Source: Clostridia bacterium (lineage in GTDB: Bacteria > Bacillota > Clostridia > Oscillospirales > Acutalibacteraceae). Taken from it: a stretch of 64,000 nucleotides of DNA. The notes beneath the pieces are model-generated. The model worked only from the letters and a program-made list of their open reading frames with translations. It made no database searches and was not told the origin of the DNA. The position numbers and the translations under genes were made by a program. The DNA lies in NCBI GenBank assembly GCA_017465505.1, contig JAFTWB010000004.1, forward strand, positions 20,121 to 84,120. Reading direction: 5' to 3'. Of this stretch, positions 39,307-49,774 are shown piece after piece; the stretch's first letter is position 1; every line of letters starts with the position of its first letter.

Positions 39307-40011
39307 ATGAAACTGAAAATTGAGAATTTATCAAAGAGCTTCAACAAAAAAGAAGTTCTCAAAAACGTAAGCTTTACCTTTGAAAGCGGAAAGATTTACG
39401 GACTACTGGGTCGAAACGGTGCCGGTAAAACCACACTTTTCAACTGTCTTAACAAGGATATGCGTTTTGACACAGGCTCTGTTTACATAGAGGAAAGCTC
39501 ATCCTCACGTCCTGTGGCGGCTGACGATATCGGCTATGTGCTTTCAACTCCTACCGTGCCCGAGTTTCTTACAGGCAGGGAGTTTCTTAAGTTTTTCCTT
39601 GATATTCATCAGAAAAAGCTTAAGGACGTAAAGTCTACCGACGAGTATTTTGATTTTATGAGCATTATGCCCGAGGACAGAGATAAGCTCCTCAAGGATT
39701 ACTCTCACGGTATGAAAAACAAAATGCAAATGCTTATAAACATCATCGCCGAGCCTGACATTCTCCTTCTGGACGAGCCTCTTACCTCTCTGGACGTTGT
39801 TGTTGCCGAGGAAATGAAAGAGCTTCTCAGAAATATCAAGGACGGAAGAATCATCATCTTCTCCACTCATATTATGGATTTGGCTCTTGATTTGTGCGAT
39901 GAAATCGTGCTTCTTCACAATGGTGAGCTTGAGCTTGTGGACAAAGAAAACCTTGGCAGTGTGGAATTTAAGGAAAAAATCATTGCCGCTCTGAGGGAGG
40001 ATTATCAATGA
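39307..40011 (+). CDS. ABC transporter ATP-binding protein
   Basis: The 234-residue ATPase has Walker A GLLGRNGAGKTT (about residue 36), the signature DYSHGMKNKMQML (an SHGMK variant of LSGGQ), Walker B ILLLDEPLTSLD and the H-loop STHIMD. This is the pattern of small drug- or peptide-type exporters of the CcmA/YtrB type. I chose the ATG at 39307, the first with conserved sequence after it. It overlaps the permease gene by 4 nt. The substrate is unknown. Confidence 0.9.
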   Translation: MKLKIENLSKSFNKKEVLKNVSFTFESGKIYGLLGRNGAGKTTLFNCLNKDMRFDTGSVYIEESSSSRPVAADDIGYVLSTPTVPEFLTGREFLKFFLDIHQKKLKDVKSTDEYFDFMSIMPEDRDKLLKDYSHGMKNKMQMLINIIAEPDILLLDEPLTSLDVVVAEEMKELLRNIKDGRIIIFSTHIMDLALDLCDEIVLLHNGELELVDKENLGSVEFKEKIIAALREDYQ

Positions 40012-41591
40012 GAAACGCCTTCAGAATCTCATTTTCTCTGAAAAACACCTACAGAGTCAACTCAATCCTTTACGCCATAAAGCAGCTACCTATCCTCAAA
40101 AAAGTTCTGCCTGACAGAATTTACGGTATGATAGGCTTTAAAATTGTGGGCCAGATTCTTTCCTGGATGTGGGAAGTGTTCTCTTCCATTTTCTTAAAAG
40201 CACTTTACTTTGGTGCTCTGACAGCCACAACTTTTGCTCTGGTTACAGTGGTAGATAACATAAGCTTGTTTGGCGAAATATTTATGCACCTGTTTTTATT
40301 CGGTACTTTAATAGGCACTATGAGCAACACCTATATGCTCTCAACCCACCGAAGCAAGCACTACGCAGTTATGCTTCTGAATATGAACGCCAAAAAGTAC
40401 AACATTTCAAACTATATTTTTGAGCTTTCAAAGCTTACTCTCTGCTATGCAGTGGGATTTCTGATTCTGCATTTTACCGCAGGTGTGCCTTGGTGGCTTT
40501 GCATACTTTCTGTTATTTTCCCTGTGTTTATAAAAAGTGCAGTGGTGGGATATCTTTTCTCTGCCTTTGAAAAGGGCAAGGATGTAGATAACTCTAATCC
40601 TTTCGGAAAGCTCACCTTCCCTCTGGTTATTCTTTGCGTGATTTTAGGCGTATTATTGCCCGGACTCAGCTTACCTGTCCCCTATATTGGTGTTGGCGTT
40701 ATTATGGCAGCAGGCGTTGTGCTTGGTATCTGCGGTATTGTGAAAATCTGCAAATTTAACAAACACAGAGAAATCAGCCGCTATACTCTTTTAAAGGCAG
40801 AGGCTGTAAGAGCTGACTCCAAGCAGACAGTTGTGAAAAACACTGCAAAGGTTATCAGCGCAGATACAAGTATTCAGAGCAGCAAGAAGGGCTTTGAATA
40901 CCTCAACGAGCTTTTTATCAAGCGTCACAAAAAGATTTTGTGGAAGCCTGTGCTTATTATCACTGCAGTTGCTTTTGCTATATTTGTTATAGCAAACATC
41001 GCTTCTGCCTTCAACACGGAGACGGCTGAAATGTTCAACTCAGCACTTATGAACTCTCTGCCCTATTTTCTCTTTGTTATGTACGCCATCAACAGAGGTA
41101 TGAGCTACTCTCAGGCACTTTTCATCAACTGCGACCACAGTCTGCTCACCTATTCTTTCTACAAGAAGCCTAAGAATATCCTTAAGCTTTTCACACTCCG
41201 CTTAAAAGAAATTGTTATTATGAACCTTCTCCCTGCCTTTATTATCGGCGTGGGTATGGCGGCGCTTCTTTATGTATCGGGCGGCACAGATACACCTGTT
41301 AACTATCTGCTCCTGCTCCTTACACCTATGGCTATGAGCATATTCTTCTCGGTGCACAATCTTACAATTTACTACCTCTTACAGCCTTATAATTCCAACA
41401 CAGAGGTAAAAAGCGGCACTTATTCTCTGATTATGGGTCTTACCTATGCAGTCTGCTATATTTTTATGAATATAGAAATCCCTACTTTGTATTTCGGTAT
41501 AGCGGTACTGGGCTTCTCCATTATTTACTGCTTAATCGCTTGCTTACTTGTATACAAAAAGGCTCCCGACACTTTCAGAATAAGAGCCTAA
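40008..41591 (+). CDS. ABC transporter permease, unknown substrate
   Basis: The 527-residue membrane protein has about 12 hydrophobic segments in two halves joined by a charged stretch at about residues 245-300 (SKQTVVKNTAKVISADTS). It overlaps the ATPase by ATGA, so the two form one transporter. I recognise only a general ABC-2-like permease, which would pump something outwards. No regulator gene is adjacent. The region right after its stop begins with a structured repeat. Confidence 0.75.
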   Translation: MRNAFRISFSLKNTYRVNSILYAIKQLPILKKVLPDRIYGMIGFKIVGQILSWMWEVFSSIFLKALYFGALTATTFALVTVVDNISLFGEIFMHLFLFGTLIGTMSNTYMLSTHRSKHYAVMLLNMNAKKYNISNYIFELSKLTLCYAVGFLILHFTAGVPWWLCILSVIFPVFIKSAVVGYLFSAFEKGKDVDNSNPFGKLTFPLVILCVILGVLLPGLSLPVPYIGVGVIMAAGVVLGICGIVKICKFNKHREISRYTLLKAEAVRADSKQTVVKNTAKVISADTSIQSSKKGFEYLNELFIKRHKKILWKPVLIITAVAFAIFVIANIASAFNTETAEMFNSALMNSLPYFLFVMYAINRGMSYSQALFINCDHSLLTYSFYKKPKNILKLFTLRLKEIVIMNLLPAFIIGVGMAALLYVSGGTDTPVNYLLLLLTPMAMSIFFSVHNLTIYYLLQPYNSNTEVKSGTYSLIMGLTYAVCYIFMNIEIPTLYFGIAVLGFSIIYCLIACLLVYKKAPDTFRIRA

Positions 41592-41600
41592 CCGTTAGCC

Positions 41601-41673
41601 AGTCGTTAGCCACGACTGGGCAACTCCACCTTTGGAAAGGTTTGATGTAACTTTAACCAGTCATCAACGGTGG
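41601..41673 (+). repeat. Structured repeat, copy 1
   Basis: A hairpin AGTCGT-TAGCC-ACGACT is followed by a 56-nt core starting GGGCAACTCC and ending AACGGTGG. CCACC near the start can pair with GGTGG at the end, and TTGATG with CATCAA inside. The same layout occurs in copies 2 and 3; against copy 3, 41 of 56 core positions match. Confidence 0.75.
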
Positions 41674-41689
41674 GGTTAAACGCAAAAAC

Positions 41690-41766
41690 TGTCCGTAAGG
41701 ACAATACCACTGCGTAGCAATACCACTGGCAAAAGCCAATACCACTCGCCGCAGGCGAATATCACT
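41690..41766 (+). repeat. Hairpin array B1 with linker AATACCAC
   Basis: After TGTCC-GTAA-GGACA, the linker AATACCACT occurs at 41703, 41719 and 41738, and AATATCACT at 41758. Between them are perfect hairpins TGC/GCA, TGGC/GCCA and TCGCC/GGCGA with loops of 3-4 nt. Each linker's final T and first A are the outermost pair of the neighbouring hairpins. The layout is the same as array A. Confidence 0.8.
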
Positions 41767-41817
41767 ATCCCTAGCCACGGCAGGTCGCTTCGCTCCGATT
41801 ATTAAAAAAATAGGATT

Positions 41818-41927
41818 GCAGGCAAAGCCTGCCACGCTAACGTTTGCAAAGCAAACATTTCGCACTGCTTGCAGTATATCGCATTTGCGTGAGCAAATAT
41901 ATCGAATTGACGAAGTCAATATATCGC
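41818..41927 (+). repeat. Hairpin array B2 with linker ATATCGC
   Basis: Perfect hairpins GCAGGC/GCCTGC, GTTTGC/GCAAAC, ACTGC/GCAGT, ATTTGC/GCAAAT and ATTGAC/GTCAAT run in series. ATTTCGC, ATATCGC, ATATCGA and ATATCGC (41857, 41876, 41899, 41921) separate the last ones. The build is the same as A and B1 but with a different linker. No gene overlaps it. Confidence 0.78.
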
Positions 41928-41931
41928 CTTA

Positions 41932-42001
41932 CCGTTAGCCACGGCGGGCCATTCCGCCTTTTGAAAGGCTAGCGGCAATGGTTGTGTGTGCTTAACGGCG
42001 G
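41932..42001 (+). repeat. Structured repeat, copy 2
   Basis: The layout is as in copy 1: hairpin CCGT-TAGCC-ACGG, then a 56-nt core from GGGCCATTCC to AACGGCGG. Here the closing pair is CCGCC with GGCGG, a compensated change from CCACC/GGTGG. 35 of 56 core positions match copy 1. Copies 1 and 2 are direct repeats that enclose arrays B1 and B2. Confidence 0.72.
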
Positions 42002-42044
42002 GATCAAAAGTTAAACTGTGTTTAAAAAACAAATATCAAGAATC

Positions 42045-42075
42045 AACCGTCACGGATTATCCGTGGCGGTTTTTT
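42045..42075 (+). terminator. Intrinsic terminator downstream of the repeat region
   Basis: AACCGTCACGG and CCGTGGCGGTT form an 11-bp stem (one G-T pair) with an ATTAT loop, followed by T-rich sequence. It is the first strong terminator after the ABC permease, so the transcript may include all the repeats. Confidence 0.8.
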
Positions 42076-42147
42076 GTTGCAGATAAACAAAAAGCATTGG
42101 TCTTTTATGTCAATTTGTACCTGATTATCAAATTTTCTAAAAAGATG

Positions 42148-42176
42148 TTGACAAGTTTCCTTGTCATTCGTATAAT
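42148..42176 (+). promoter_or_regulatory. Perfect consensus promoter for the XRE-DUF3169 operon
   Basis: TTGACA and TATAAT are both perfect and separated by 17 bp. The -35 box and spacer lie inside the first of two operators, so repressor binding should block RNA polymerase. Confidence 0.85.
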
Positions 42177-42200
42177 GCTTATTGACAAGAAAACTTGTCA
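42149..42200 (+). promoter_or_regulatory. Twin operators for the XRE repressor
   Basis: TGACAAG-TTTC-CTTGTCA (42149-42166) and TGACAAG-AAAA-CTTGTCA (42183-42200) are two perfect 7-4-7 inverted repeats. Their centres are 34 bp apart, about three helical turns. One covers the -35 box and the other the transcript start. Autoregulation by the adjacent XRE protein is inferred. Confidence 0.75.
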
Positions 42201-42223
42201 TTTTAATTGGAAGGAGAAAGAAT

Positions 42224-42442
42224 ATGCCCCTTAACAACAAACTGAAGGAGTATCGCTCGGCTCTTGGGGTTAATCAGGCTGAGATGGGTGCTTTGGTGGG
42301 AACATCCCGTCAGACCATAAGCCAGATAGAGCGTGGGGATTACTCCCCGTCTGTTACCCTTGCACTTAAAATTGCGAAGGTGTGCAAAGCTACGGTAGAA
42401 GACATTTTTATTTATACGGAGGATGAGGAAAATGAAAACTGA
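42224..42442 (+). CDS. XRE-family helix-turn-helix repressor
   Basis: The 72-residue protein is one HTH_3 domain: LKEYRSALGVNQAEMGALVG and TSRQTISQIERGDYSPSVTL hold the two DNA-contact helices, followed by KIAKVCKATVEDIF. I chose the ATG at 42224 because GGAAGGAGA precedes it. Small XRE proteins next to DUF3169 membrane proteins are a recurring pair. The perfect promoter overlapped by twin inverted repeats suggests that it represses its own operon. Confidence 0.92.
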   Translation: MPLNNKLKEYRSALGVNQAEMGALVGTSRQTISQIERGDYSPSVTLALKIAKVCKATVEDIFIYTEDEENEN

Positions 42443-43238
42443 CAAAAATATCAAAACCAATAACAAAAAGAAAACACTCACAACTGTCTTAGTGTTTGCT
42501 GCACTTTGTATTTTGGGCGGATGTTTGGGTGTGTTTATCGGCTATTTTTCAGGTCAGTATGAAAGCTTCGATTTAACTGCCATAAAAGAAATAATCAAGA
42601 ATATACTTATTTATGTTACCCCTGTGGCAATACTAGGTGTTTTTGCCTTTGTGCTTATATATTCAATCTTTGGCCACAACAAAGCCAAGAAGGCAATTTT
42701 AAATTGGGACGGCGAGGACGAAGAGTACATAGAAAAGATTGAGGCTAAACTTGGTGTAATCATTTCAATGCTCACCATTGGTCTTATCCTTATATACGCT
42801 CTTTTTGCGATATATTTCTATGCTTTATTTAATCTTATGAACCCCGAGCAGTTCTTTAATACACTCCCCTTGATGGCACTTGTGTTTATGGCATTTTTTG
42901 CAACTCTTTTCTACAACACCTTTATGCAGAGAGCCTGTGTAGAGCTTGTAAAGAAAATCAATCCCGAGAAAAAGGGCGACACCCTTTCTGTTAACTTCCA
43001 GAAAGAATGGGAGCAGAGTATGGACGAAGCCCAGAAGCTTATGCTTTATGAAACAGGATACCGCACATACAAGGTAATGAACTATGCTTTAATGATTGCC
43101 TGGCTTATCTGCACACTTGGCATTATGTTCGGAATGGGTCTTATGCCTACACTGGTGGTTTCTGCTTTGTGGCTTACTTCAACCATTACTTACTCGGTTT
43201 ACGGCTATAAAATAGAGCATAAAAACAAAAAAAGGTAA
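42432..43238 (+). CDS. DUF3169 family membrane protein
   Basis: The protein of about 268 residues has two N-terminal hydrophobic segments (LTTVLVFAALCILGGCLGVF; IYVTPVAILGVFAFVLIYSI), a charged stretch (WDGEDEEYIEKIEAKLG), two more segments, then the DUF3169-type block MLYETGYRTYKVMNYALMIA and two final segments. I chose the ATG at 42432 because GGAGGATGAGG lies upstream. It overlaps the XRE gene by 11 nt. The function is unknown; pairing with a repressor suggests a regulated membrane response. Confidence 0.75.
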   Translation: MKTDKNIKTNNKKKTLTTVLVFAALCILGGCLGVFIGYFSGQYESFDLTAIKEIIKNILIYVTPVAILGVFAFVLIYSIFGHNKAKKAILNWDGEDEEYIEKIEAKLGVIISMLTIGLILIYALFAIYFYALFNLMNPEQFFNTLPLMALVFMAFFATLFYNTFMQRACVELVKKINPEKKGDTLSVNFQKEWEQSMDEAQKLMLYETGYRTYKVMNYALMIAWLICTLGIMFGMGLMPTLVVSALWLTSTITYSVYGYKIEHKNKKR

Positions 43239-45391: not shown

Positions 45392-45426
45392 ATAACTAAA
45401 GTTAAATATATGAAGAATATAGATTT

Positions 45427-45500
45427 CCACCGTTAATGATAGCTTTAACATATATCAAGCTTAACAAAAGGCGGAATTGCCCTGCGGGTGGCTGACCCGC
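45427..45500 (-). repeat. Structured repeat, copy 3 (inverted)
   Basis: On the minus strand, hairpin GCGGGT-CAGCC-ACCCGC is followed by a 56-nt core from GGGCAATTCC to AACGGTGG. The closing pair is CCGCC with GGTGG (one G-T pair), and TGATA can pair with TATCA inside. The loop CAGCC corresponds to TAGCC in copies 1 and 2. Confidence 0.72.
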
Positions 45501-45503
45501 AAA

Positions 45504-45544: not shown

Positions 45545-48500
45545 TTATTCTTTTATTTTGTTTTTTGCCTCTGTAAGCATAAGCTTTATACGGTTAAGCT
45601 GATTAACCTCACTGGCACCGGGGTCATAATCCACTGTTGCGATATTTGCCTGAGGCAGTGCACTTCTGACCGCCTTAAGTACGCCTTTGCCCACAATATG
45701 GTTTGGCAGACAGCCAAAGGGCTGGATACAAACAATATTGGGCACTCCGTTTTCAATAAAGTGAACCATCTCGGCAGTAAGGAACCAACCCTCGCCGTAC
45801 TGGTTGCCGATGGATATAAATCGGCTTGCGGTTTTTGCCAACTCCTTCATAGGAGTTGAAGGCTCAAACCTCTTGCTCTTTTTAAGAGCTTTTGTGGCAG
45901 GGAAACGTACAAAATTAAGCATTTTACCCAAGGCAGCACCGCCGATTTTTGAGCTTAATTTGCCGCCTAAGTTCTTGTGACGGAAGGCTCTGCCGAAGCC
46001 GCTGTAAATAAAGAAGTCGAGAAAATCAGGCACAACTGCCTCTGCTCCCTCTTCCTCAAGCCTTTCTACCAGATTACCGTTGGCAAGAGGCATATACTTA
46101 ACGAGGATTTCGCCAACAATGCCGACTCTGGGCTTTTTCACATCACGAAGTGGGAGATTGTCAAAATCATTGACAATTGCCTTACAGGTTTTCATATATG
46201 TAGAAACGGAGAAATGCTTTTTCTGAATCTGCTCTGCACAAGTGTCAAGCCACTTTCTCTTAAGTGCCTCTGCACTGCCCTTTTCCTTTTCATAGGGACG
46301 TGTGCGGTACAGGCATTTCATAATAAGGTCGCCGTACACAAGGCTTGCACCGCCTCTGACCATCATAGGCACAGTGAGCTTAAAGCCGGGGTTAGACTCA
46401 AGCTTGCTTAGGTTAAGAGAAATTACGGGGATATGACCCATTCCCTCTCTATCCAGAGCTCGGCGGATAAATCCGATGTAATTGGTAGCACGGCAGCAAC
46501 CGCCTGTCTGAGTCATAAGAATTGCAAGCTTATCGGTGTCGTACTTGCCGCTTTTAACTGCGGAAAGAAGCTGACCCACCATAATAAGTGAGGGGTAGCA
46601 GGCGTCGTTGTTAACGCATTTAAGGCCCATATCAACGGCACTTCTGTTGTCGTTATCAAGGATAACAAAGTTGTAGCCGTAGGCGTTAAAGGTTGCCTGC
46701 ACAAGCTCAAAATGCATTGGAGCCATCTGAGGAGCGATGATGGTGTATCTGTCGTCCCTCATTTGCTCGGTGAAAATTGTGCGGTGATAAGCGGTGGAAA
46801 CATCCTTGTGCTTTACATTATTCTTATCTCTTTCCTCAATTGCCGCCATAAGGGAGCGGATACGGATTCTCGCCGCACCAAGGTTATTTACCTCATCAAT
46901 TTTAAGAACAGTATAAAGCTTGCCGCTTGCCTCTAAGATTTCTGCAACCTGGTCTGTTGTAACGGCGTCCAGACCACAACCGAAGGAGTTAAGCTGTAAA
47001 AGCTCTGCGTCATCTCTGTGACGTACAAACTCAGCGGCACGGTAAAGTCTTGAGTGATAACTCCACTGATCAGTTACTCTTAAAGGTCTTTCTACCTTCA
47101 CTTCTTCGGGAACACTATCTTCTGTAAGAACATTGAAGCCATAGCCCGAAATCATAGCAGGGATTCCGTGGTTAATCTCGGGGTCGCAGTGGTAAGGTCT
47201 GGAAGCAAGGACAATCATTTTGCCCTTTTTCTTTTCGGTTTCCTTTATAATTTCTGCACCCTTTTTGCGGATGTCGGCTTTTGCGTTCATAAGCTCAGCC
47301 CAAGCTTTGTGGCAGGCTTTTTTAGTTTCGCTCTTTTTAATGGAGAAGCTCTCACGAAAGACCTCTGCCACTCTGTCGGTGAGGGTTTTCTCGTCGCTGA
47401 AAGCTAAGAAAGGATGGATAAACTGAGCCTTGCCTGAGGTGATATTCTCAACGTTGTTGTTGATATTTTCAGGTGTGCCGATAACTATGGGGCAGTTGTA
47501 TTTATTCTTTGCACCCTCTTCGGGACGTTCGAAGTATACACTGGGATAAAAAATCCTGTCAACACCGTTTTTAATCAGCCACTCAATATGACCGTGAGCA
47601 AGCTTTGCAGGATAGCAAAGGCTTTCGGAAGGGATAGACTCCATTCCCAGCTCGTAGATTTCACGGCTTGAATAAGGAGAAAGCTTCACGCAGAAGCCCA
47701 GCTCTTTAAAGAGCCTTGCCCAGAAGGGGTAGTTTTCGTACATATTCAGCACTCTGGGAATACCGATAACGCCTCGGCTTGCTTTGCTCTCTTCTAAAGG
47801 CTCAAGGGAGAAGATACGGTTCTTTTTGTATTCAACCATATCAAAGCCTTTTTCACGCTTAGCCTCACCACCCAGAGGACGCTCACATCTGTTACCTGAA
47901 ATGTGACGCTCCTTGCCTCGGAAGGTGTTTACTGTAAGCATACAGTTGTTGGAGCACTTGCCGCACCTTATGGCGGTGGTGTTATATTTAAGGTCCTGAA
48001 TTTCCTCAAAGCTGATAATAGAGCTCTCGCCCACACTTCTCTCTTTAGCAATGAGAGCGGCACCAAAGGCACCCATAAGTCCCGAAATATCGGGGCAGAT
48101 CGCCTCTTTGCCTGTAAGCTTTTCGAAGGCTCGCAGCACTGCCTCAGAGCAGAAAGTACCACCCTGAACCATAATGTGCTCGCCCAAGCCCTTTGAGGAG
48201 CTGAGCTTGATAACCTTGAAAAGTGCATTTTTAACAACACTGTAAGCAAGACCTGCGGAAATGTCAGAAAGGGTTGCACCCTCTTTCTGAGCCTGCTTTA
48301 CGTTGGAGTTCATAAAAACAGTGCAACGTGTGCCAAGGTCCAACGGGTGAGGAGCAAAGAGAGCTTCTTTTGAAAATTCCTGAGCGGTTTTGCCCATAGA
48401 AACGGCAAAATTTTCAAGGAAAGAGCCGCAGCCCGAAGAGCAGGCCTCGTTAAGAAGAACACTGTCAACTGAGCTGTTTTTAATCTTTATAAACTTCATA

Positions 48501-49774
48501 TCCTGACCGCCGATGTCAAGCATACATTCTGTATCCTTATCAAAGAATCTGGCGGCGGTATAGTGAGCGATGGTTTCAACCTCACCGAAATCCAGCCTGA
48601 AAGCAGACTTAAGAAGGCTTTCGCCATAGCCTGTGGAGCAAGCACCCTTAATAGTTGCACTCTTGGGAAAATTCCGTGAAAGCTCCTTTAAGGCAAGCTT
48701 TGCGGTATTTATGGGCGAGGTGTTGTTGCTTGAGTAAAAGTCCCACAAAAGCTCTCCGCTCTCGCCTATAAGAGCAAGCTTTGTGGTGGTTGAGCCTGCG
48801 TCAATACCAAGGTAGCAAGCTCCGCTGTATGTACTTAAATCAGCCCTCTTCACCTTATTCTTTGCGTGGCGAAGGGAGAAAGCCTTGTACTCTTCTTCGC
48901 TTTCAAACAAGGGCTCAAGACGTTTAAGCTCAAAGCTCATCTCCCCTGCGTTCTCTAAATCAAGAATAACCTGAGAAATCAGCTTTTCTTTACTTTCTTC
49001 TGCACAGAATGCAGTACCTATTGCCGGGAAAAGATGGGAACTTTCAGGGTCAACTGTGGTTTCATCAGTAAGGTTAAGTGTGCGGATAAATGCCTTTTTA
49101 AGCTCTGTTAAAAAGTGCAGAGGGCCGCCTAAGAAAGCAACTGTACCTCTGATGGGTTTGCCGCAGGCAAGTCCTGAAATTGTCTGATTTACAACCGCTT
49201 GAAAGATAGAAGCAGACAAATCCTCTTTAGTAGCACCGTCGTTAATAAGGGGCTGGATGTCGCTTTTTGCGAAAACACCGCACCTTGCCGCTATAGGATA
49301 AATCTGATTATAATTTTTGGCGTACTCGTTAAGGCCCGTTGCGTCTGTCTGCAAGAGAGCCGCCATCTGGTCGATAAAAGAGCCTGTGCCGCCGGCACAG
49401 ACACCGTTCATTCTCTCTTCCAGTCCGCCTGTGAAATATATGATTTTTGCGTCCTCGCCACCAAGCTCAATGGCAACATCTGTCTGAGGAGCAAGGCGTT
49501 TAACTGCCTCTGCCTCTGCCACAACCTCCTGCACAAAGCCGATATTCATAAGCTTTGAAAGGTTAAGGCTGCCGCTGCCTGTGACGTTGAGCTTGAGAGA
49601 AATATCTCCCAGCTCTTCTTTTGCCTCCATAAGAAGGTTTTTAAATGTATCTCTGATATTAGCAAAATGGCGCATATAGCGACCGAACACCATATTGCCG
49701 TTCTCGTCGAGAACCACAAGTTTAACGGTGGTGGAGCCGATATCTGCGCCTGCTAAGTAAGTTTTTGCACTCAC
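45545..49774 (-). CDS. Large acyl-CoA dehydratase activase-related protein
   Basis: The 1409-residue protein has two BadF/HgdC-type ASKHA domains. In the first (about 5-260) are GADIGSTTVKLVV, ELGGEDAKIIYF and CAGGTGSFIDQM; in the second (about 323-580), GIDAGSTTTKLALIG, DIGGQDMKFIKI and EACSSGCGSFLE. A Cys motif (CGKCSNNC) follows, then a DUF2229 region and a dehydratase-subunit-like C-terminus. Activases of this type use ATP to reduce a [4Fe-4S] dehydratase, but no dehydratase gene is adjacent. The start is GTG, overlapping plsY by 4 nt. The real substrate is unknown. Confidence 0.88.
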   Translation of the reverse strand: MSAKTYLAGADIGSTTVKLVVLDENGNMVFGRYMRHFANIRDTFKNLLMEAKEELGDISLKLNVTGSGSLNLSKLMNIGFVQEVVAEAEAVKRLAPQTDVAIELGGEDAKIIYFTGGLEERMNGVCAGGTGSFIDQMAALLQTDATGLNEYAKNYNQIYPIAARCGVFAKSDIQPLINDGATKEDLSASIFQAVVNQTISGLACGKPIRGTVAFLGGPLHFLTELKKAFIRTLNLTDETTVDPESSHLFPAIGTAFCAEESKEKLISQVILDLENAGEMSFELKRLEPLFESEEEYKAFSLRHAKNKVKRADLSTYSGACYLGIDAGSTTTKLALIGESGELLWDFYSSNNTSPINTAKLALKELSRNFPKSATIKGACSTGYGESLLKSAFRLDFGEVETIAHYTAARFFDKDTECMLDIGGQDMKFIKIKNSSVDSVLLNEACSSGCGSFLENFAVSMGKTAQEFSKEALFAPHPLDLGTRCTVFMNSNVKQAQKEGATLSDISAGLAYSVVKNALFKVIKLSSSKGLGEHIMVQGGTFCSEAVLRAFEKLTGKEAICPDISGLMGAFGAALIAKERSVGESSIISFEEIQDLKYNTTAIRCGKCSNNCMLTVNTFRGKERHISGNRCERPLGGEAKREKGFDMVEYKKNRIFSLEPLEESKASRGVIGIPRVLNMYENYPFWARLFKELGFCVKLSPYSSREIYELGMESIPSESLCYPAKLAHGHIEWLIKNGVDRIFYPSVYFERPEEGAKNKYNCPIVIGTPENINNNVENITSGKAQFIHPFLAFSDEKTLTDRVAEVFRESFSIKKSETKKACHKAWAELMNAKADIRKKGAEIIKETEKKKGKMIVLASRPYHCDPEINHGIPAMISGYGFNVLTEDSVPEEVKVERPLRVTDQWSYHSRLYRAAEFVRHRDDAELLQLNSFGCGLDAVTTDQVAEILEASGKLYTVLKIDEVNNLGAARIRIRSLMAAIEERDKNNVKHKDVSTAYHRTIFTEQMRDDRYTIIAPQMAPMHFELVQATFNAYGYNFVILDNDNRSAVDMGLKCVNNDACYPSLIMVGQLLSAVKSGKYDTDKLAILMTQTGGCCRATNYIGFIRRALDREGMGHIPVISLNLSKLESNPGFKLTVPMMVRGGASLVYGDLIMKCLYRTRPYEKEKGSAEALKRKWLDTCAEQIQKKHFSVSTYMKTCKAIVNDFDNLPLRDVKKPRVGIVGEILVKYMPLANGNLVERLEEEGAEAVVPDFLDFFIYSGFGRAFRHKNLGGKLSSKIGGAALGKMLNFVRFPATKALKKSKRFEPSTPMKELAKTASRFISIGNQYGEGWFLTAEMVHFIENGVPNIVCIQPFGCLPNHIVGKGVLKAVRSALPQANIATVDYDPGASEVNQLNRIKLMLTEAKNKIKE

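Follow-up and report, generated by a model that had tools for sequence, protein, structure and literature searches.

The structured repeat that occurs twice behind a membrane-protein-like gene in the window (the whole stretch of 64,000 nucleotides that was analyzed) appears, on balance, to be a genus-specific REP-like interspersed element of about 75–80 nt, hereafter called the head, which probably works as a structure at the 3′ ends of mRNAs and is not tracked by RAYT transposases. The heads are dispersed and mostly intergenic, their structure is under constraint, in sister genomes they are mostly placed at stop codons, and their presence varies between relatives. They probably constitute a new REP-like family outside the GTAG and CGTC super-families, and probably one of 3′-UTR RNAs. 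The source genome of the window is a 1.9-Mb bin of 30 contigs, labeled G000 among the compared genomes.

Copies 1 and 2 are both located between the stop codon (TAA, 41589-41591) of a 527-aa membrane-protein-like gene and a terminator-like hairpin. An ABC ATPase-like gene, likewise named by reading, stands upstream of the membrane-protein-like gene. The parts of this site, together with the third head of the window, are the following:

40008..41591, plus strand: upstream gene of 527 aa, membrane-protein-like, named by reading
41592..41678, plus strand: head copy 1 (covariance-model match 41599-41678, 92.5 bits)
41690..41766, plus strand: hairpin array A, four hairpins with differing stems, read from the sequence
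41767..41782, plus strand: remnant of an additional head, reduced to the 5′ hairpin, by-eye comparison with locus L021
41783..41841, plus strand: linking module TCGCTTCGCTCCG...GCAGGCAAAGCCTGCC, read from the sequence
41842..41927, plus strand: hairpin array B, four hairpins, read, with part of it caught by the detector of arrays
41931..42006, plus strand: head copy 2, closing pair CCGCC/GGCGG (model match 41928-42006, 69.7 bits)
42037..42079, plus strand: terminator-like inverted repeat and then a T-run, common to the sister genome G104
45422..45502, minus strand: third head of the window (covariance model, 61.9 bits)

In copy 1, hairpin 1 pairs 41599-41606 with 41612-41619 around a TAGCC loop and helix 2 pairs 41622-41630 with 41669-41677, while the outer CCGTTAGCC arm begins 0 nt past the stop codon of the 527-aa gene. 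The hairpin of the third head lies directly behind the terminator-like hairpin and T-run of a minus-strand gene (45545-49774). The linker of array A is AATACCACT / AATATCACT and that of array B is ATATCGC / ATATCGA / ATTTCGC. The head remnant is without the core that L021 has, and versions of the linking module stand, as read, ahead of arrays at other sites.

The head consists of hairpin 1, with a variable stem and a loop that is mostly TAGCC, the spacer RGGGCAAYTCC, and helix 2, in which CCRCC and GGYGG (the latter within AACGGYGG) close around a variable core of about 40 nt. The initial annotation had proposed a selected fold with compensatory changes from the copies of the window. As it described, the stems CCAGTCGT/ACGACTGG and ACCGT/ACGG(C) differ yet pair, with the TAGCC loops kept, and the closing pair CCACC/GGTGG of copy 1 is replaced by CCGCC/GGCGG in copy 2. 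Covariation tests of 34 and of 92 copies now support such a fold, selected or otherwise maintained.

The covariance model was built on 34 aligned heads (alignment A2, with 33 heads from the own genome and one from G104). Its rows include copy 2 and close relatives of copy 1, and leave out copies 1 and 3. In the 56 heads listed for the own genome, the inner four pairs of hairpin 1 are formed in 56, 56, 56, and 55 cases, the third pair outward from the loop using CG and GC and the fourth CG, GC, TA, and AT. The covariation score of A2 is 0.193, as compared to 0.085 ± 0.010 for shuffled alignments (0 of 500 as high) and to at most 0.064 with slid partners. Two other measures of A2 are not above the shuffles, since the number of pairs with two-sided change is reached by 106 and the count of pair types by 192 of the 500. 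A larger alignment, A3 (95 rows, 92 distinct, mostly from other species), was fitted to the model and leans toward it; with this in mind, 97.5% of helix 1, 97.8% of helix 2, and 63.1% of helix 3 are paired over the 92 distinct copies. In the same model-fitted alignment, two-sided changes are found in 12 of 15 pairs, and 0 of 500 shuffles reach any of five measures. RNAalifold on A3 gave helix 2 only, with its five pairs.

We have also carried out a tree-aware test in the manner of R-scape, a check that the initial annotation had named. Gapless blocks were anchored on the loop and on CCRCC/GGYGG, and substitutions were re-dealt in 60 null alignments on a FastTree tree built from the same 38 columns. 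The test took the 108 of 151 rows that fit the gapless blocks, the other 43 being dropped or identical. The four best of the 703 column pairs are predicted pairs, h1_3 and h1_2 being at the top (E 0.03 each), followed by h1_4 and the middle pair of CCRCC/GGYGG (E 0.13 each). Three further structural elements were considered and set aside. Lengthening helix 2 outward, to as many as 9 pairs, finds no support in two-sided changes or in the tree-aware test; helix 3, with only 61–63% paired in A2 and A3, is not claimed; and a pseudoknot between GCC of the loop and GGGC was rejected by eye, copies with GAGCC loops having AGCC downstream.

Folded alone, copies 1 and 3 take the consensus fold (z −3.6 and −2.4, respectively). 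Copy 2 does not take it (z −1.33), and the head of the sister genome G152 at the remA site does not prefer the full consensus fold. With respect to the strand, helices 1 and 2 of A3 contain 21 G-T against 8 A-C combinations over the 92 copies, which leans to the head's own strand. The same test fails in the own-genome heads, with A-C 5 versus G-T 1 in helix 1 and 3 versus 3 in helix 2. In the heads at L137, L156, L157, and L057 (C25:105270), the 3′ arm continues into GGGGTTT, which can pair with AAACCCC/AAACCTC of the core to give a terminator-like hairpin; by pattern, this is found in 3 of 40 sister-genome heads and 3 of 56 own heads.

The covariation could in principle stem from mutation rather than selection, if template switching during replication rewrote one arm of a stem from the other and so restored the pairing. 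As reported in PMC8794818, stems can be rewritten in a single step by template switching, a process that also acts in this way in RNA genes. Such a process would fit the nested 5′ hairpins and the whole stems that differ between heads at the same site, as at the remA site, where GCAGGT/ACCTGC is found versus CCCGT/ACGGG. We nevertheless regard it as a quite unlikely origin of the pattern: helix 2 spans about 40 nt, also covaries, and has a few G-T forms, and the loop, the GGGCA spacer, and AACGG are largely fixed in the 34 aligned heads while the stems vary. Part of the covariation of hairpin 1 may come from template switching, a less natural source for helix 2.

Most heads are intergenic. A long open frame overlaps 5 of 40 sister-genome heads and 5 of 56 own heads, as compared to 595 of 800 random placements. 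In G104 and G152 together, 26 of the 40 heads start 0–3 nt past a same-strand stop codon or contain the stop, where the heads are the best-scoring copies rather than a random draw (two of them, L126 and L142, near-identical) and the upstream genes are open frames rather than gene calls. This number is made up of 19 heads counted by script and seven added by reading the 24 nt after each stop, namely L121, L126, L135 (stop inside the head), L136, L137, L142, and L144. Seen from the genes, 24 stops of ORFs of at least 140 codons have a head loop within 140 nt. The loop motif lies at an offset of 2–5 in 16 of them, which puts the stem at the stop codon, and at 20–112 in the remaining eight. The first hairpin is at most 1 nt from the stop in 12 of 17 cases with a head loop within 30 nt, versus 4 of 31 with no head motif within 140 nt (p 9e-5). 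In the own genome, 15 of 56 heads are within 9 nt of a same-strand stop, nested and tandem heads being counted separately. The stop codon can also be part of the head, as read in CGT-TAA-CC for G104 at site L143 and CGT-TAG-CC for G000 at site L127.

For 14 of the 40 sister-genome heads there is no same-strand stop within 3 nt upstream. Four heads (L125, L150, L155, and L159) come after the T-run of a terminator, as found by reading, and three (L122, L147, and L148) abut, by eye, the −35 box or the Shine-Dalgarno sequence of a divergent gene. A coupling to ribosomes does not explain the heads at T-runs, −35 boxes, or Shine-Dalgarno sites. A more doubtful suggestion is that the head moves as a structured element directed to where genes end, its insertion or survival being set by a functional edge instead of a sequence target. 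The edge would then be a stop codon, a terminator T-run, or another, with the first base pair 0–1 nt away. If this were true, the insertion route could be coupled to the termination of translation or transcription. No mobilizing protein was found for the heads.

Two side observations concern the arrangement of heads. Facing inverted pairs, about 120–190 nt apart and BIME-like, are present at L135, L139, L140, L150, and L153. In G104, a degenerate head stands between the promoter and the start codon of an HTH gene (L089:1150-1225, minus strand), with the ends ATTTCAAG/CTTGAAAT, and there is no head at that place in the window.

The heads are largely confined to one genus. A covariance-model search of genomes, also foreseen in the initial annotation, finds them in 63 of 120 genus genomes, the own genome included, that is, in 62 of the 119 other sampled genomes of the genus at E ≤ 0.001. 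Copy numbers are lower bounds (the best 39 candidates were scored per genus genome and the best 31 per order genome), and the model E-values are rough. Within these bounds, G000, G104, and G152 have at least 39 heads each, and G018, G137, G151, G166, and G169 have 20–24 each, while 29 of the 63 matching genomes, own included, have just one or two copies. In the own genome, the 401-nt query spanning the site gives 80 BLAST matches, and a pattern search gives 56 heads, 54 of them distinct, in 47 fetched loci. In 39 relatives, BLASTN with the same query has hits in 8 genomes, and the hits outside the own genome are mostly pieces of arrays.

Beyond the genus, a scan of 147 genomes of the order finds heads in G000 and, weakly, in G227 alone. 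G227 belongs to a different family within the order; its six matches (L204, L206, L208, L210, L212, and L214; best 2.2e-5) are weak and reflect either a distant relative of the head or chance. The exact head pattern, which is much less sensitive, occurs in 8 stretches of three MAGs in a species-genome collection that may leave out the window's own genome, and in none of the viral contigs. None of the 4,227 Rfam models matches the head, at E ≤ 1 in positions 41000-42600 of the window or at E ≤ 0.1 in 7 loci. Among the matches listed, no description of the repeat was found in the open-access literature. G104 and G152 share a 98% identical stretch of 1.1 kb containing a head (L126 and L142), which reflects either a recent transfer or cross-contamination of the bins.

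For 12 out of 20 prepared genes that carry a head, the 3′ ends were searched in eight genomes and the sites then read. Three of these sites have a head in each of G000, G104, and G152 (L124, adjoining a remA-like gene named by reading, L143, and L149). Five clearly lack it in one or more of the three genomes: L127, L128, L130 (where the G000 site was read in the wrong orientation), L136, and L144. The other four (L134, L137, L138, and L139) are comparable in fewer than all three species. At L136, the head of G104 directly follows the stop, while G152 and G000 have the stop, a short spacer, and a comparable terminator. The presence thus varies between relatives, in line with the empty sites that the initial annotation expected. 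No target duplication was recognized by eye at the compared sites. Orthologous heads are 0.68–0.84 identical in the best pairing (16 pairs of 17 listed), versus cross-genome means of 0.74–0.75. They are about as unlike as random ones, owing either to rapid drift under structural constraint or to replacement by conversion.

We consider it unlikely that the heads are a vertically inherited, non-mobile family of cis-regulatory RNAs, in which each head belongs to the 3′ UTR of its gene and variation reflects loss only. The many sites at which two or three species have a head in the same position, and the strong covariation, agree with such inheritance. It is opposed by the nested and tandem heads, by the own-genome copies that are up to 0.97–1.00 identical to a paralog, and by the five of 12 sites empty in at least one of the three close relatives, the last of which loss could explain.

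At the window's own site, the orthologs of the 527-aa gene (present in 3 of 60 genus genomes, the window's own included) allow a direct comparison with G104 (75% aa identity) and G106 (57%). G104 has the stop codon, one head without arrays, a similar spacer, and the same terminator, and G106 has no head there. The 3′ flank of the single head of G104 shares 92% identity with the flank of copy 2, as compared to 62% with the flank of copy 1. The head itself, whose helix 1 is broken, has the higher identity with copy 1, at 0.80 versus 0.68 for copy 2. For copy 1 there is also a paralog at another place of the own genome, with an identity of 0.97. Flank and head identity thus disagree on which copy is older. 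More weight was given to the flank, and from these identities copy 2 is probably the one in the ancestral position.

This comparison bears on the proposal in the initial annotation that both copies could mark the limits of a single composite element of about 400 bp, which we, taking it as a mobile element, now find highly improbable. It is true that the arrays stand between the copies and that a direct repeat, GCCTAACCGTTAGCCA / GCCTTACCGTTAGCCA, is present at both. At the orthologous site, the sister species has a single head, copy 1 and the arrays being extra, so the two copies do not delimit one composite. Moreover, apart from the site itself, the three longest matches of the 401-nt query extend over its positions 1-327 and do not include copy 2, and the order of heads and arrays differs at other sites, with head–array A–head–array B in L002, L003, and L008, tandem head–array units in L009 and L047, and a head alone in L057. 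We infer instead that head-plus-array units joined a place already holding a head.

Among known systems, the REP/BIME elements are the closest comparison. REPs adjoin the 3′ ends of ORFs and, in the GTAG group, lie near stops or provide the stop codon, according to PMC3733652. As described in PMC3733652 and PMC12306157, they resemble the heads in being dispersed, intergenic, hairpin-forming, and mostly 3′ of ORFs near stops, and in that they can supply a stop codon and form inverted pairs. The head is, like a REP, a small palindromic repeat of high copy number in intergenic positions. It differs in being longer, with two helices, in its varying stems with a kept loop, and in its mostly 0–3 nt distance from the stop codon in the sister genomes. 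It also has no GTAG or CGTC tag, and the Y1 transposases do not track it. No invariant tag of either kind was found at hairpin 1 or helix 2 in the 34 aligned heads or, on reading, in the 56 listed ones. A dispersed repeat near the heads at L122, L128, L140, and L150, GTAGGGG(palindrome), begins with GTAG and may itself be a true REP.

That the head is a classical REP, mobilized by RAYT (a Y1 HUH transposase), is very unlikely. The likeness in the stops contained within heads (L143 in G104, L127 in G000) speaks for it, as do the occurrence of Y1_Tnp in five head-rich genomes (G000, G152, G148, and weakly G151 and G169) and a degenerate head-like sequence near a Y1 gene of G152 (L165). Besides the lack of either tag at the hairpin ends, the distribution of Y1_Tnp, found in 8 of 16 genomes searched, does not follow the heads, which weakens the link. 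It was not found in the head-rich drafts G104, G018, G137, G166, and G142, it is present in the drafts G009 and G010, in which no head was found, and the two own-genome Y1 loci have no heads in the 400–560 nt or so of flank read, L161 stopping at the contig end.

Miniature elements such as MITEs and those of the RU/ERIC type are small, non-coding, intergenic, and multi-copy. The head shares these properties and may differ from MITEs, in that neither consistent terminal inverted repeats nor a target duplication was recognized by eye, CCGTT...AACGG ends being read only in heads with the 5′ stem CCGT. Integron attC sites have RYYYAAC at the 5′ end and GTTRRRY at the 3′ end; attC-like ends were rejected, the heads having GTT at 5′ and AAC at 3′.

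The arrays are a repeat kind distinct from the head and related to Rfam Gut-1 (RF01706), a noncoding RNA candidate that dates from 2010 and was given as "human gut only" (PMC2864571). Array A matches Gut-1 on the minus strand (E 0.0039, 28.8 bits) and, at six other places among the seven loci searched, with 28.9–37.5 bits, in all seven places below the gathering score of 50. An array beside the own-genome head at L020 (C17:63130-63203) scores 56.3 bits, above it. Array A thus resembles Gut-1 in its hairpins with different stems and a kept linker and differs in its sub-threshold scores. Gut-1 as the identity of the head itself was rejected, because Gut-1 matches the arrays and no Rfam match falls on the head. 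Above the gathering score, Gut-1 is found in 37 of 98 order genomes and 0 of 14 control genomes, with up to 37 matches per genome (best 42 candidates scored). In many genomes of the order, it forms hairpin arrays in high copy number (L283-L302). At L285, L292, L294, and L297, these arrays consist of two inverted half-arrays, the first with GTGAAAT linkers and the second with ATTTCAC; a long stem, for example AAATCCGTCC...GGACGGATTT, closes them. At L285, L292, and L294, they start right after TTTTTTCAAC, itself located after a terminator-like hairpin.

Gut-1 co-occurs with genes for IVP (PF05635). Among the 79 genomes searched for the two, 34 have both, 8 IVP only, 5 Gut-1 only, and 32 neither (Spearman 0.74; Fisher p 1e-9, a value that ignores the relatedness of the genomes and is hence too small). 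Nine of 128 Gut-1 places are within 1 kb of one of 69 IVP matches, with 0.52 expected, in counts that leave out the Gut-1 places of genomes without entered IVP places and some entries at list ends; most Gut-1 places are therefore not beside an IVP gene. Seven places are 141–174 nt upstream of the IVP match on the same strand. A detector of arrays, which misses array A of the window, responds at 10 of 30 IVP loci and at 18 of the 47 head loci of the own genome. It responds in 1 of 20 control stretches and at 1 of 40 other sites in the same genus; an earlier version, which was too strict, gave 6 of 30 IVP loci and 1 of 20 controls. In the own genome, a AATACCACT array stands just upstream of the IVP gene at L075. 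Elements of intervening sequences in 23S rRNA with an S23p/IVP gene are a known system, as described in PMC4990558. The likeness is that some IVP genes of the order have hairpin arrays alongside, and the difference is that the window's site, on reading its sequence, has no IVP gene. Among the matches listed, no link between Gut-1 and IVP was found in the open-access literature. The Rfam orphan Gut-1 "RNA" is in this light a dispersed hairpin array tracking IVP genes, which points to a possible protein partner.

Returning to the REP-like element that we favor, the head would be transcribed together with the upstream gene, and hairpin 1 and helix 2 would form a barrier in the 3′ UTR. By analogy with the E. 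coli REPs, this barrier may affect mRNA decay, ribosomes at the stop codon, or both; a statement in PMC12306157 reports that E. coli REPs close to the stop codon stall ribosomes. On this analogy the head, for which the initial annotation had left a choice between RNA and single-stranded DNA, probably acts as RNA at the 3′ ends of messages. New copies would arise as non-autonomous DNA. In the own genome, head-plus-array units would have undergone additional spread, for which recombination or conversion at the 5′ sequence common to existing heads, CCGTTAGCC, is a possible route. In the window, such an event would have placed a head–array A–(head remnant)–array B block beside the older head, between the stop codon and the terminator.

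If this reading holds, uncultured gut Clostridia would have a REP-like family with measurable compensatory change and with positional precision at stop codons. With dozens of copies in sister species, the role of such repeats as 3′-UTR RNAs would be directly testable.
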